IMG/VR virus record: IMGVR_UViG_3300045996_002343
Location: 1 to 53,993 of that record
DNA: 53,993 nucleotides
From: a virus
Direction: 5' to 3' (one strand)
Below the pieces are notes generated by a model that did no database searches, was not told the origin of the DNA, and was given only the letters and a program-made list of their open reading frames with translations. A program made the position numbers and the translations under genes. Positions 26,551 through 53,993 of the stretch are shown in pieces. Every line of letters starts with the position of its first letter. The first letter of the stretch is position 1.

Positions 26551-27001
26551 ACCCAAGAGAGGCCGCGGAAGGCCAAGCAAAGGCCACGGAGGAATGGGCA
26601 ATGCTACAACCGAGACAGCCCAATCATCGGCAGAATCCCAGGAGAAGATCGTCAAGAGATTCTGGAAGTTTGTTGATACTGGTGGTGAGGATCCTAACAG
26701 CGATTATCCTGTTCCGCCAGGAGTGGTCGCTGGGTCAGTGGATCATCGCTGCTGGACGTGGACAGGTACACGTAACGGAGATGGTTACGGACAGCTCACT
26801 GTTGACTGTCAGCAGCGTCTGGCTCATCGCGTTAGCGTTGCACTTCATCAAGGCTCGATAGACTACAACCAAGTAGTCCTACATGCCTGCGACAACCCTT
26901 CCTGCGTCCGGCCGTCACACTTAACTCCTGGGACACAATCCGAGAACATGCAAGATATGGTCGCTAAAGGTCGCGACCGCTGGAGGCATCAACGACAATG
27001 A
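26372..27001 (+). CDS. HNH endonuclease with AT-hook
   Basis: A protein of up to 209 residues. The C-terminal 110 residues form an HNH_3 domain: HRCWTWTGTRNGDGYGQ, then HACDNPSCVRPSHL with the two Cys and His of the metal site, then a SENMQDMVAKGR helix. Before it lies an AT-hook (KRGRGRPSK), a minor-groove binder. ATG 26372 follows an AAGGGGGG box. Starts at 26432 or later also keep the nuclease. Free-standing HNH proteins can be homing enzymes or help packaging or recombination. There is no intron nearby. Confidence 0.8.
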   Translation: MSSSLKGPVRSVFIRRSPYSPMMDVEMKLSVSSGDKTLPGPMQFQGLLRFPPPGSPSGPKPKRGRGRPSKGHGGMGNATTETAQSSAESQEKIVKRFWKFVDTGGEDPNSDYPVPPGVVAGSVDHRCWTWTGTRNGDGYGQLTVDCQQRLAHRVSVALHQGSIDYNQVVLHACDNPSCVRPSHLTPGTQSENMQDMVAKGRDRWRHQRQ

Positions 27002-27285
27002 TACATGCACGAGAAGACTACAACAGGATCCAGGATCCGGCTCTGGAGGATTCCTCTCTCCTGGGGCCAGGATCAACTCCTATCGGTAAGGACGAGCCTG
27101 TGATTCTCTTCCGAGCCCAAGACAAGCACTTCGTTCAGATTTTGAACTTCTACTACGAGACACTGGAGAAGTTCGGAGAGGCCGAGGCAGACGTCTTCGA
27201 GTGCTTAGAGAATCATATGGTTCTGGCCGAGGAGTGGCAGGACAACCATCCAACCAAGGTTCCTGACCTGCCAAAAACCCAGTAA
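26998..27285 (+). CDS. Small acidic protein, unknown
   Basis: A 95-residue acidic protein starting on ATGA over the HNH stop. Residues 35-80 form a likely helix pair (FVQILNFYYETLEKFGE; VFECLENHMVLAEEWQ). No known motif. It ends the transcription unit before a new promoter. Confidence 0.65.
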   Translation: MIHAREDYNRIQDPALEDSSLLGPGSTPIGKDEPVILFRAQDKHFVQILNFYYETLEKFGEAEADVFECLENHMVLAEEWQDNHPTKVPDLPKTQ

Positions 27286-27318
27286 GAATGTACCTGGGAC
27301 ATCAATTCAAAAATCCAC

Positions 27319-27347
27319 TTGCATTTGCAATCAAATTGTCGTATAAT
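27319..27347 (+). promoter_or_regulatory. Promoter for the tandem-HTH gene
   Basis: TTGCAT at 27319-27324, 17-bp spacer, perfect TATAAT at 27342-27347. It lacks the GGTAAAGACTATC/GTACC box of the two sister promoters, so it may escape their control. It lies 67 bases ahead of a gene with a good AGGAG ribosome site. Confidence 0.75.
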
Positions 27348-27413
27348 TTAATTGTGAATGCAGCAGAGCAGATTCAATAGTGATTCTGCCCTCGATCAAG
27401 GAGTGCAACGAAA

Positions 27414-28076
27414 ATGTCCGCAGTAGATGCAACCCCCGCAGCGGCTCCGGCAGCTGAAGTAGCCAAGGCTGTTATCGGGATCCAGTTGAATGATCCCCGT
27501 GAAGGTAAAGAGGGGCAGTCGATTGCCCGCCGACAACTCTGCCGTGAGCTGTTCCAAGGTGTCGGCGTTGAGAAGCCGATGAGCCGTGGCCTGATCGTCA
27601 AGTATCTGGCCGAGAAGTGCAACCACACGACTTCTCACCAGGTAGTGTTTCAGGCAACTCAAGGCCTGGAGCAGAACGGTGAAGTAGCTGCCAATCCCCG
27701 ATCCGGTGGCGGAGGTGGTGGTGGTACTCAGAAGACGATCAACGTCCCAGTTCTCGACGAGAAGGGTCAGCCCACCGAGACTCGTCAGGATGTCGGCCAG
27801 CGCGACTACATCTACGAGCTCTTCAAGTCGGGTCGCTCTCGCCGAGCCGTTCAGGACTTCCTGAAGCAGTACGGGATCGAGCTGAGCTACGGTGCCATCT
27901 TCCAGTATTCCAAGAAGTACAAGGAAGCTGGCGGCAACGTGACCGTCGATGCTAAGGGGGGCGGTAAAGGGGCGGCTGCAGCAGCAGCGATTAGCCCGGA
28001 TCAGGCACAGGCAGCCCTTGCCGGCGATCCCGACCTGGATGAAGAAGATGACGATGGCGGCGACGACATCATTTAA
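27414..28076 (+). CDS. Tandem helix-turn-helix DNA-binding protein
   Basis: A 220-residue protein with two copies of one HTH-like domain, residues about 25-85 and 122-165 (second: RDYIYELFKSGRSRRAV, FLKQYGIELSYGAIFQY), joined by a glycine-rich linker and ending in an acidic tail (DLDEEDDDGGDD). Acidic C-termini are common in phage ssDNA-binding or chromosome-organising proteins. The pattern (ELF.xG, then SY.xx.F/VY) recurs in the leftward proteins at 44948, 49855 and 53297. It has its own promoter and a strong ribosome site, so expression should be high. A repressor or nucleoid-like role is plausible but unproven. Confidence 0.65.
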   Translation: MSAVDATPAAAPAAEVAKAVIGIQLNDPREGKEGQSIARRQLCRELFQGVGVEKPMSRGLIVKYLAEKCNHTTSHQVVFQATQGLEQNGEVAANPRSGGGGGGGTQKTINVPVLDEKGQPTETRQDVGQRDYIYELFKSGRSRRAVQDFLKQYGIELSYGAIFQYSKKYKEAGGNVTVDAKGGGKGAAAAAAISPDQAQAALAGDPDLDEEDDDGGDDII

Positions 28077-44504: not shown

Positions 44505-44958
44505 CTTCGGTAGATTCCTTCTCGAGAGATGCGACATAGTTGGGGGCATCGGCGATGAGGTAGTCGAGCAGTTCGATGAGATCGTCTCGCCGCTCGCGCA
44601 TGACCGACGTCATTGAATCGTCAGTGATATTGCGGAGTCCTGGCAGACTCCAGTGCTCCTGATTCGGCCTCATGACCCGATGCGAGTTTGCAGCCATTGC
44701 GTATTGACCTGCAAGCATCGCTACCGGCTCTACGTATTCGTATCCTCCCTGACGCATGAGATCGACTGCATTCATGATGGTATGGAGGCATCCTTTAATG
44801 GATTTGGCCTCCTCTTCAGATTCTTTAAACTTCCGCTCGATGTGGTCGGTCTCGTCCTTGATCGTTTGCAGCACCTTCACGATCCCATCGACTGATTGGC
44901 AGGCCTTTCGAGCCGTCAGCATCAGCAGTACCTCGGTCATCATGTTCTCAAAGCTCAT
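44473..44958 (-). CDS. Helical protein, unknown
   Basis: A 161-residue protein, nearly all helix (VLQTIKDETDHIERKFKES; RRDDLIELLDYLIADAP). ATG 44958 lies inside the last codons of the HTH gene with AGGA nine bases upstream. A longer N-terminus is possible but would overlap more. Function unknown. Confidence 0.65.
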   Translation of the reverse strand: MSFENMMTEVLLMLTARKACQSVDGIVKVLQTIKDETDHIERKFKESEEEAKSIKGCLHTIMNAVDLMRQGGYEYVEPVAMLAGQYAMAANSHRVMRPNQEHWSLPGLRNITDDSMTSVMRERRDDLIELLDYLIADAPNYVASLEKESTEDEPTSFGRVL

Positions 44959-45229
44959 CTTCATCTTCCTCGAGTTCACCTTCTTGGAACTCCTGAATCG
45001 TGTCTGTTTGGTGTTTGGGAGCTCGGTGTTCGATTCTTGCTCCCTTTGCTTTCTCCGCTTCAACATCGTTGCGGAGACCTATTGAATAGCGCAGGACGTT
45101 ATAAACTTGTTGGTATCGGCACTTCCCTCCGTATTCCTTTTCGATCTGTTCTGCAATGGCAGAGATGCTCATCTTTTCGGCCGCTAGCTCCCGCATCCTA
45201 GCGGCTTTGCTTCCTTGCTCCGAAGCCAC
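44948..45229 (-). CDS. Small HTH protein (paralogue family, one domain)
   Basis: A 93-residue protein with one HTH unit in residues about 8-50 (MRELAAEKMSISAIAEQIE, then YQQVYNVLRYSIGL) and an acidic tail ending in GELEEDEDEL. The unit aligns by eye with those of 49855-50223 and 53297-53500 (xxISxIxxxI ... YxxVYNxL). A DNA-binding regulator is likely. Confidence 0.65.
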   Translation of the reverse strand: MASEQGSKAARMRELAAEKMSISAIAEQIEKEYGGKCRYQQVYNVLRYSIGLRNDVEAEKAKGARIEHRAPKHQTDTIQEFQEGELEEDEDEL

Positions 45230-49854: not shown

Positions 49855-50223
49855 TTACTCCTTGCTCTCAGAGGCCACCTTATCGAAGACGCCCTTGCGC
49901 TTCAGTGTGTTGTAGACCATCTGATACTTGACGTCCCAGCCATAGAGCTCCTTGAGCTTCTTGGGGATCTCGTTAACTGGGATGTCTTCGTTCCACAGCT
50001 CCATGATCGCCGAGCTCTTGCTTTTCTCACCGTCAGGAGTCGCTTTGTTGATCGTGGCTCCTTTCGCCTTCAACGTAGAGTAGACTGCCTGATATGAGGT
50101 TCCTGTCGCTTCGGCAATCTGGGCGACTGTCTTCCCCTCGGCATTGAGCTCCAGGTATCGTGAGGTGTTCGTTACGCCCTCGGCGTTTCGTGCTGCTCGC
50201 TCGGACAGATTGGACCTTCTCAT
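49855..50223 (-). CDS. Tandem HTH protein, leftward regulator candidate
   Basis: A 122-residue protein with two HTH units: residues about 20-55 (LELNAEGKTVAQIAEATG, SYQAVYSTLKAKG) and about 72-115 (AIMELWNEDIPVNEIPKKL, YQMVYNTLKRKG). The second unit is the closest relative of the cytosine-free gene at 53297. It is the first gene after promoter PL2, the usual place for a regulator. ATG 50223 is preferred, with a GA-rich upstream stretch. ATG 50250 would add nine residues. Confidence 0.7.
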   Translation of the reverse strand: MRRSNLSERAARNAEGVTNTSRYLELNAEGKTVAQIAEATGTSYQAVYSTLKAKGATINKATPDGEKSKSSAIMELWNEDIPVNEIPKKLKELYGWDVKYQMVYNTLKRKGVFDKVASESKE

Positions 50224-50287
50224 CGTTCTTCTCTTCTTTCCAGGCTTCATGAGCCTTATGCTAGAGAGCATTTGTGCTCTCTATATA

Positions 50288-51739: not shown

Positions 51740-52640
51740 TTAAAATTTTTTAACACAACAGCTCGCCAAATCTCTGGCTCTTGCTCCCGGTTTTTCGCGC
51801 AGAACCAATCTCATCAGACATCACTGGAGATAGCTTGCGGGGCTTCCGTACAAGGAATGGGAAGCTACTTCATAGAGGTGGATTAGGAAGGCTAGGCTCG
51901 TCCACATTGACTGGGAAGCCTAATCCCCATTTTGCTATGAGGGCAGGTATGCCGGAACTCCGAGAGGGTACGAAGGTACGGATCTTCCCTATAGCGCTAA
52001 TAGAAATCGTTACTAATACTATTAAGGCTCGCTAGAGGGGCTGGGCTGATGGCTATAGAGAACCGTTATTGTTAGTGGAGGCCCTTTAGCTACAGCAACA
52101 CACACCGAAGATCACTTTGCGCCTGCCGGAGATACTGTAGGTTTGGTGTGCCTAGAAGTACGGATATCACCCTTGGGAGGGGAGAAACAGACCGACCGCG
52201 GCCTCAAAGGCGCCATTGCGTTCTATACGTACCCCACCCGCCTCACTTCCGCTAGTGGTGGGCTCCTCTACTGAAAGGGCGGCCCGAAAGCCCTCTGGCC
52301 CCTTCGCCCTCTAGGCTGCCGGCGCCAATTCCCGATTTACCCGCGCGCCTAAGCGCCCGTGGTCGCCGGAAAGGCCGATTTACCCGTGGACGCAGTGGGT
52401 GGTAAGCTCATGGCGTCTGAGGGTGGGGCCCTGAATCCGTTGAAAATCTGAAAATAGGGGCCTGGCAACATTTGGCGGCCTCTCCGGATTGCCTGAGGAG
52501 AGGCTGAAGTGGAGATATGGAGTTCTGATGGAGTTTTGACTCCCTGGAGTTAGAGAGGCGTCGACACCTCCTATTGTAGCGTGGCGTCACATCTCCAGCC
52601 GCGCACCCGGCCGCGAATAACACGGCTTTTATCCGTGACC
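51740..52640. other. Non-coding stretch upstream of the leftward operon
   Basis: No frame here has a ribosome site or recognisable product. Visible elements are an 8-bp inverted repeat (GGATTAGG 51880-51887 with CCTAATCC 51919-51926) and a 12-bp direct repeat (CCGATTTACCCG at 52332 and 52375). Base use turns GC-rich between about 52180 and 52640. Confidence 0.6.
52332..52386 (+). repeat. 12-bp direct repeat pair
   Basis: CCGATTTACCCG occurs at 52332-52343 and 52375-52386, 43 bp apart, in a GC-rich non-coding stretch. It could be a pair of initiator or regulator sites. Two copies are too few to call iterons. Confidence 0.5.
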
Positions 52641-52647
52641 TGAAATC

Positions 52648-52999
52648 CGCGAAGCGATTCCCGCGTGAGCGACCTTGTTCGGACTACTCCACAGGAGACC
52701 TTGTTTGGAGGGGGTGGGGGATGATGGGGGTTGGGGGCAACTGGGGGAGGGGGAAAATACCCGCGGAGCGATAACGTGCGAAGCACACCAATGCACGAAG
52801 TGCAGCCGTCGGCACGACATGGAGCACGGCGCAGCGAAACGAAGTGGAGAGTGTCTGCGAAGCCGAATAACGGGGCGATGCGAACCCCGACAAAAATCCG
52901 CGAAGCGAAAATCGATAACCGCGTAGCGACAGCAGCCGATCAAATAACGCCGAAGGCGACATACAGGAACGAAGTGACTGCCACCAGGCCCGCGGAGCG
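52648..52999 (+). repeat. Array of GNA-loop mini-hairpins
   Basis: At least ten short hairpins share a triloop of the form GNA closed by C-G, but differ in stem: CGCGAAGCG (52648, 52899), CGCGGAGCG (52762, 52991), GTGCGAAGCAC (52776), TGCACGAAGTGCA (52792), GCGAAGC (52857), CGCGTAGCG (52920), CGCCGAAGGCG (52948), ACGAAGT (52969). A GTGA-loop version lies at 52662. Stem changes keep pairing. d(GCGNAGC) is a known ultra-stable DNA mini-hairpin. The last five are spaced 21-28 bp apart. Confidence 0.8.
52710..52753 (+). other. G-quadruplex-forming sequence
   Basis: Six runs of exactly five G within 44 bases, separated by loops of 1, 5, 2, 5 and 1 bases. This far exceeds the four runs of three G needed for a quadruplex. 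It lies inside the mini-hairpin array, on the same strand as the GNA loops. Confidence 0.8.
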
Positions 53000-53098
53000 A
53001 AAAACCTACAGCCTATCACCCTCTACAGCGTGGTAGCCGACAAAAATGTAAGCAGACCGACAATGTCAGCCTACCTACATTCTATCACACCCTACCTT

Positions 53099-53224
53099 TC
53101 ATCCTCCCTTCCATTTATCAAACCTCTTACCCCTCTCACCAATCCACCACACTTTCACCTTTACCACTTTCTTAACCACCACTTCACTTCCCCACCACTT
53201 CACACTCTTAATCTTCACACTCAT
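53099..53224 (-). CDS. Candidate 41-residue basic protein in the cytosine-free tract
   Basis: A frame without any C in its coding strand, MSVKIKSVKWWGSEVVVKK onward, rich in Val, Lys and Trp and free of Ala, Pro, Thr, His and Gln. AGGA lies a few bases before the ATG. It follows the HTH gene by 72 bases in the same direction. In a C-free strand short open frames are common, so this is only a candidate. Confidence 0.3.
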   Translation of the reverse strand: MSVKIKSVKWWGSEVVVKKVVKVKVWWIGERGKRFDKWKGG

Positions 53225-53296
53225 ACTATCCTAACCTTTCTCCCACCCACCACCCATAAACACTACCTACCTTACAAACCAACCCTCACCTCTATC

Positions 53297-53500
53297 CTAT
53301 TTCTCCTTTCTCTTAATCTCCCCTATCCTCACCAAATTATTATACACCATATTATAACTCACCTCTAACCCTCTCTTATTCATCTCATCCCTTATCTCAC
53401 TAATACTCATATCCTTATCCCACAACTCCTTCATCACACTCACCTTACTAACACCCTTTACCACCTTACCATCCACCAACTCACTTTTTCTCACACTCAT
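53297..53500 (-). CDS. Cytosine-free HTH gene
   Basis: A 67-residue protein from ATG 53500, with AAGGAG exactly seven bases upstream. A GTG at 53548 opens the same frame but lacks a ribosome site. VMKELWDKDMSISEIRDEM and SYNMVYNNLVRIG align with the second HTH unit of 49855-50223 (IMELWNEDIPVNEI, YQMVYNTLKRKG). The coding strand contains no C at all, so Ala, Pro, Thr, His and Gln are absent, all serines are AGT, all arginines AGA or AGG. Probably a DNA-binding regulator adapted to a strict base constraint. Confidence 0.75.
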   Translation of the reverse strand: MSVRKSELVDGKVVKGVSKVSVMKELWDKDMSISEIRDEMNKRGLEVSYNMVYNNLVRIGEIKRKEK

Positions 53501-53507
53501 CTCATAT

Positions 53508-53513
53508 CTCCTT
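53508..53513 (-). promoter_or_regulatory. Ribosome binding site of the cytosine-free gene
   Basis: AAGGAG on the - strand, seven bases before ATG 53500. This fixes the start and is strong evidence for real translation. Confidence 0.8.
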
Positions 53514-53538
53514 AACTTCAACACTACCCTACACTCAT

Positions 53539-53567
53539 ATAATACCACAACCTATACACCTATACAA
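53539..53567 (-). promoter_or_regulatory. Promoter of the cytosine-free gene
   Basis: On the - strand: TTGTAT (53562-53567), 17-bp spacer, TATTAT (53539-53544). Both hexamers are fair sigma-70 matches with ideal spacing. It starts transcription about 30 bases ahead of the AAGGAG site. Confidence 0.6.
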
Positions 53568-53685
53568 CCTTTTCAAATAAAAACTTCCCTAATTCTTTTC
53601 TTCATATTTCCAAATGCCATTCTGCAATACACCCGACTACTAACAATCCCATACACCTAACACTCCACCTCATACTAACCTCTCC

Positions 53686-53785
53686 GCATATCATACCCTC
53701 TCCACCGCATACTACCTCTTCACACTCTATCCTCTGCATATCATACTCTACCTACCGCATACTACCTCTACATAATCTCTACAAT
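53686..53785 (+). repeat. 50-bp tandem repeat, two diverged copies
   Basis: 53686-53735 and 53736-53785 share GCATATCATAC, then CCGCATACTACCTCT at the same offset. Most of the tract's rare G bases are in these GCAT motifs, so they may be protected by function. Confidence 0.65.
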
Positions 53786-53831
53786 AACTCAACATCTCTT
53801 CTCCCCATAATCTCTACAATATCTCAACATC
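53771..53831 (+). repeat. 35-bp-spaced repeat of a 26-mer
   Basis: The 26-mer beginning CATAATCTCTACAATA occurs at 53771-53796 and 53806-53831 with one difference. No G in either copy. Adjacent to the 50-bp tandem repeats and the end of the unique sequence. Confidence 0.7.
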
Positions 53832-53866
53832 CTATCGCCAACTCTCAACATTCACGCAACATAATA

Positions 53867-53993
53867 CCTAAAATCACTCTATATTATTATTTGACGTGAC
53901 ACAACTGATGAACAGAAGTTATGTAGACGGCGAATAATAATATACGAGCTGATTTTACGGTATTAACTGAGGGTGGGAGAGACTGTACCCGGC
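53867..53993. repeat. Terminal direct repeat, second copy
   Basis: Exact copy of bases 1-127. See the first copy for interpretation. Confidence 0.9.

Follow-up and report, generated by a model that had tools for sequence, protein, structure and literature searches.

Cytosine is excluded from the early-sense strand over several hundred nucleotides at the start of the early side of this phage genome, including a small regulatory gene, and this exclusion has been kept in one syntenic relative at least, and probably in another. We put the probability that C is selected against in an early transcript, and that this selection is conserved, at about 0.9. The window, meaning the whole stretch of 53,993 nucleotides that was analysed, carries a 127-bp direct repeat at its two ends and so represents a circular genome of 53,866 bp, in which the tract is internal. 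The two nested intervals discussed below are:

53070..53615, minus strand: strictly C-free stretch (G-free on the plus strand), comprising part of the 5' leader, the Shine-Dalgarno sequence, the helix-turn-helix (HTH) gene and a 227-nt 3' part
53070..53892, minus strand: entire C-poor domain on the early-sense strand (823 nt containing 9 C), supported by the maximum-scoring segment and by binned C content

The base content described in an earlier note on this DNA was confirmed. On the plus strand there is no G in the 546 nt from 53070 to 53615, nine G occur in the next 251 bases (53616-53866), and the edge is sharp, with a G at 53069; RNA read leftward from 53070-53615 would contain no C, as the note had stated. 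Other 546-nt stretches of the window contain a mean of 144 G and a minimum of 100. Outside the region, G-free runs reach no more than 32-36 nt, and the chance expectation for such a 546-nt run is 4e-68. No tandem repeat or short tandem unit was found in the tract, and its interpretation as a tandem repeat was rejected. When 400 whole genomes drawn from the phylum of a TerL-bearing Chloroflexi genome were scanned, eight contained G-free runs of at least 188 nt, and the places listed for those eight all resembled short-unit repeats when inspected by eye. Among the best genome relatives of TerL (40-43%), many lie in Chloroflexota (Dehalococcoidia/SAR202) contigs, a hint at the host phylum. Folding tests of the plus strand of the tract gave an MFE of approximately 0 and no structure, for which composition alone accounts. 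Searches for Rfam families and tRNA gave no match, a promoter scan gave weak sigma-70-like sites and nothing more, and DNA similarity searches against phages and plasmids gave nothing beyond 35 bp shared with Priestia in low-complexity sequence, which was judged to be chance.

The C-free stretch contains a real gene, predicted to encode a small HTH DNA-binding protein with the sequence MSVRKSELVDGKVVKGVSKVSVMKELWDKDMSISEIRDEMNKRGLEVSYNMVYNNLVRIGEIKRKEK. The gene, its ribosome-binding site and its two paralogs in the same genome are:

53297..53500, minus strand: C-free gene for a 67-aa HTH protein
53508..53513, minus strand: Shine-Dalgarno AAGGAG of the C-free gene, sequence TTAAGGAGATATGAGATG, 7 nt before the ATG
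49855..50271, minus strand: paralog of normal composition, 138 aa with two HTH domains, 43% identity over 44 aa (pairwise E=7e-10)
44948..45229, minus strand: second paralog of normal composition, GTG start

The coding assignment is based on a perfect Shine-Dalgarno sequence, strong codon periodicity, the predicted fold and the paralogs. The 3-base periodicity was significant within the 204-nt gene (P=3e-6) and not in the C-free flanks (P=0.33 and 0.81). AlphaFold2, given the C-free protein and the two paralogs as input, predicted a three-helix fold with a block pLDDT of 90-94 over residues 21-60. The view that the tract is purely non-coding was rejected given the Shine-Dalgarno sequence, periodicity and predicted fold. 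The protein is one of the three-helix HTH proteins of the early operon that make up the YQxVYN family of these phages; a survey with a profile built by us from members seen in this analysis found proteins of this family in most related phages examined. A peptide scan of IMG/VR and GTDB gave no homologs of the C-free protein, and a structure search gave weak HTH matches, none with E <0.001.

Because Ala, Pro, Thr, His and Gln have no C-free codon, none of these five residues occurs in the protein, an absence with P=1.7e-9 given the amino acid usage of the genome. The avoidable C codons number 0 of 44, against an expected 58% (P=4e-17). The effect on protein sequence is visible in the motif YQxVYN(S), where Q is present in all nine of the other domains compared (from the window and the relatives G443 and G446, described below) and is replaced by N in the C-free protein alone. 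At the third codon positions of this gene and of the C-poor HTH gene L214:7179-7499, A is lowered (0.13-0.16) and G is raised (0.50-0.54); C avoidance alone does not explain this pattern.

Queries with TerL, QueC and the MCP returned few close kin, and alignment of DpdA gave two phages with the same feature. The nearer of these, G443 (IMGVR_UViG_3300045256_000036, 55.1 kb), is 66% identical to the window in the MCP, 51% in the primase, 49% in TerL, 49% in the portal and 41% in DpdA. The more distant relative, G446 (IMGVR_UViG_3300045912_000261, 112.5 kb, 59% GC), is 40% identical in the primase and 42% in DpdA. In all three phages terS and terL lie on one side of the locus and point away from it (the terS of G446 being terS-like by position), the early operon lies on the other side, and the strand lacking C is the early-sense strand. 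The corresponding segment of G443 is:

26902-27780 of G443: C-poor segment at the same locus and in the same orientation, 879 nt with 37 C

This segment includes strictly C-free runs of 119, 90 and 69 nt, and its gene product is an HTH protein with two domains that belongs to the same family as that of the window. The gene uses only 2 of 64 avoidable C codons (57% expected, P=1.5e-20). Eight C remain in it, six of them in Ala, Gln and Thr codons, where C is unavoidable. G443 has retained C at positions that its protein requires and the window has not, a pattern that looks like a balance between selection against C and the needs of the protein. In G446 there are 308 C-free nt with sharp edges at the corresponding locus; this tract may contain a 38-aa ORF, and the HTH-family genes come after it. 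The earlier note had regarded relatives of normal composition at this locus as a finding that would overturn it, and instead the nearest locus-keeping relative found, G443, shows the same depletion, as does the distant G446. The tract it described is real; the gene inside it and its conservation had been overlooked. The same-locus feature in the relatives and the paralogs of the gene in the window genome rule out an assembly fault or chimera, and conservation in G443 and G446 excludes chance.

A similar tract was not found in many other DpdA or primase relatives, in some of them because the contig is fragmentary, so the element belongs to a subset of these phages. One phage with a 68% identical capsid, G514, lacks both the replication/DpdA module and the tract; with a GC content of 65%, it also illustrates strong mosaicism of the structural genes. 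Two further candidates, with weaker C-poor stretches, were not counted. The stretch G491:49663-50088 has 32 C and 132 G in 426 nt, is partly a GT repeat and runs opposite to the early strand, and the stretch in G031 is AT-rich.

The sites on either side of the gene, listed in the leftward direction, are:

53862..53965, unstranded: AT-rich imperfect palindrome at the upstream edge (z -8.5), the C-poor domain beginning in its downstream arm
53766..53831, minus strand: two 31-nt direct repeats with GATGTTGAG, which is also repeated in the G443 leader
53684..53766, minus strand: four GCATA boxes, with G at 53686, 53707, 53736 and 53757 (spacing 21, 29, 21)
52648..52999, plus strand only: nine mini-hairpins with GNA loops, flanking the C-rich element on both sides and adjoining the C-free tract
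52707..52758, minus strand: C-rich, G-poor, rut-like element (a G-quadruplex motif on the plus strand), approximately 1.1 kb from where the C-poor domain begins

At the place of the palindrome G443 has a 32-nt inverted repeat with 94% complementarity (26912-27013), which overlaps its C-poor segment, and the palindrome-leader junctions of the two phages gave a weak alignment of 69% over 64 nt (E=0.008). The C-poor domains start in the palindrome in both and are alike in length (823 nt in the window, 879 nt in G443), with C reappearing about 800 nt in. The GCATA array consists of two 50-nt copies that are 74% identical and contains four of the nine residual G of the plus strand; it is a possible operator. 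The leaders of both phages also share a repeated GATGTTGA(G). Elsewhere in the window, at 363-730 upstream of terS, long inverted repeats are nested within one another, their arms being G-rich and C-rich.

The C-rich element was the only conserved block when the 3.5-kb control regions of the window and G443 were compared (BLAST, E 1e-3). It is non-coding, lies at +1109 in the window and +1091 in G443, and comprises CCCCCAACCCCCATYATCCCCCACCCCC and its flanks, together 87% identical over 53 columns (E=1.5e-10). It ranks first among C>G stretches on the early strand in both phages, with 42 C and 9 G per 80 nt in the window, and it was absent from 36 other related records. A region void of C followed at a fixed distance by a conserved C island suggests a C-reading factor acting on the early RNA.

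The best explanation at present, which we offer tentatively, is that a C-binding factor, most probably the host Rho, reads how C is distributed along the early RNA. Rho loads on C-rich, G-poor, unstructured RNA and is the established C-reading factor. Transcription would begin at the palindrome and proceed leftward, the region without C would leave the leader and regulator mRNA free of Rho, and Rho would load 1.1 kb after the start, at the conserved C island. The short regulator transcript would always be finished, while entry into the remaining early operon (51640 and on) would be gated by termination, perhaps relieved by phage proteins. Known rut sites are C-rich, G-poor and unstructured (PMC9160355), and a C-rich, G-poor stretch is present at 52707-52758 and equally in G443, with the locus and its orientation kept between terS/terL and the early operon. 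Several observations fit less well. Ribosomes should shield a translated ORF from Rho, yet C is avoided inside the ORF too, and isolated C should not load Rho, so that the complete lack of C over 546 nt exceeds what the model needs. A rut-like site downstream of the C-free region is not found in every member, as the C-rich run of G446 (C10) is located just upstream of its C-free tract. Termination could also depend on the mini-hairpins.

It is possible, if doubtful, that C has been removed letter by letter from leader, ORF and trailer in order that the regulator be made when other transcripts stop, with the amino-acid alphabet of the regulator cut to fit. The stop would be imposed either by a C-directed host defence (ddhCTP, a C-specific RNase) or by a C-reading factor. 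The narrower proposal that C-free RNA resists C-directed attack or shortage, in the form of ddhCTP, C-dependent interferases or CTP starvation, appears rather unlikely. Prokaryotic viperins make ddhCTP, which leads to chain termination, and MazF-type (ACA) toxins are C-dependent mRNA interferases; under such attack the regulator alone would be expressed and the other phage mRNAs would be blocked. Every single C is apparently penalised, in the leader, the ORF and the 3' part alike. The window sacrifices protein sequence, and the residual C of G443 are mostly unavoidable. In the window the remaining C are situated well upstream of the ORF, at positions where cleavage would spare the message. This strictness is explained better by C-directed attack than by Rho. 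The C island is not explained, nor is the start of the C-poor domain within the palindrome, and the other early genes all have normal C contents of 21-25%.

The earlier note had suggested an R-loop-primed origin. A leftward G-rich RNA would then pair with the unstructured, G-free plus strand and prime replication as an R-loop or single-strand origin, with the hairpins and G-quadruplexes as flanks. We consider this unlikely. The only R-loop-forming sequence predicted by a scan of the window genome is located here, and the cumulative GC-skew minimum also falls here. The window contains only two three-tetrad G-quadruplex motifs, at 52710-52737 (plus) and 52283-52309 (minus), and both are in this same intergenic region. 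The palindrome, the near-zero MFE of the plus strand and the GNA hairpins on that strand would also suit an origin. One 500-bp bin contains nine of the mini-hairpins (for example CGCGAAGCG and GTGCGAAGCAC), where the mean is 0.39, and they are reminiscent of N4-type hairpin promoters or ssDNA priming sites. The composition of the RNA argues against an R-loop, since GGG runs are fewer than in random sequence (15 vs 20.8), the G443 leader is merely 22% G, and R-loops do not require that C be absent. In addition, the conserved G-quadruplex motif is on the template strand and not on the displaced strand.

The same note had connected the tract with guanine modification. In one such reading a G-free template strand would avoid 7-deazaguanine (preQ0), so that this transcription unit could be read from modified virion DNA. 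The modification genes it had reported were present, the window genome encoding QueC, QueD, QueE, FolE and a DpdA-like protein (DpdA E=7e-6, below the NCBIfam cut-off), and DpdA occurs in all three phages with the tract. The link between these genes and the tract proved weak and such avoidance is improbable: StAshley, Youna2, BSP7 and approximately 48 other DpdA contigs, about 50 phages or fragments, lack the tract, and there is plenty of template G in other early genes. Only about 28-32% of G is modified in preQ0 phages (PMC6884629), so that zero G is more than would be needed. Neutral strand-specific hypermutation, with cytosine lost from an exposed strand, would affect flanks and gene alike on one strand as observed, but it is very improbable and simple C-to-T change is disfavoured, because T should approach 0.5 on the C-free strand and instead is 0.30 in the non-coding parts (G 0.41), 0.32 at third codon positions (G 0.50-0.54) and 0.26 in G446.

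When compared with known systems, the selected C-free domain resembles several of them in part. The conserved C-rich, G-poor element downstream of a small regulator gene is like a Rho-dependent terminator or rut site, such as lambda tR1 after cro. The difference is the 800-nt C-purged region upstream and the altered protein sequence, and we know of no rut system with either property. The small HTH gene placed first in the early operon and divergent from the late side, with a palindrome and repeated boxes upstream, is like a lambda-type immunity or early control region, in which a domain of base exclusion has no counterpart. Extreme strand asymmetry, G-rich RNA, nearby hairpins and an intergenic control region are shared with the R-loop-primed origins of ColE1 RNAII and mitochondrial CSB II, whereas here one base is wholly missing, the tract encloses a gene and clusters of G are not favoured. 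In messenger RNAs without ACA or GCU, which lack toxin cleavage sites, avoidance at the RNA level has likewise shaped the coding sequence; these avoid a short motif, while the phage tract avoids a whole base and does so in its non-coding parts as well. Synthetic G-less or C-less transcription cassettes also have hundreds of nucleotides without one base on one strand, but these are made in the laboratory, whereas the phage tract occurs in nature, contains a gene and is conserved. According to a methods paper (PMC6526412), long stretches (20-200 bp) lacking one base are mostly absent from natural DNA and RNA. In full-text searches of open-access literature no natural counterpart emerged, and such an element seems to be undescribed.

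Selection on a single base over several hundred nucleotides has here altered the amino-acid alphabet of a protein, and has been kept between phages that are about 50% identical in their structural proteins. Such selection implies a hitherto unrecognised constraint that acts on the strand or on the RNA and penalises each C. The tract also provides a supply of natural C-free genes for transcription work. Identifying the constraint would reveal either a new host defence and how it is evaded, or a new means of steering Rho.
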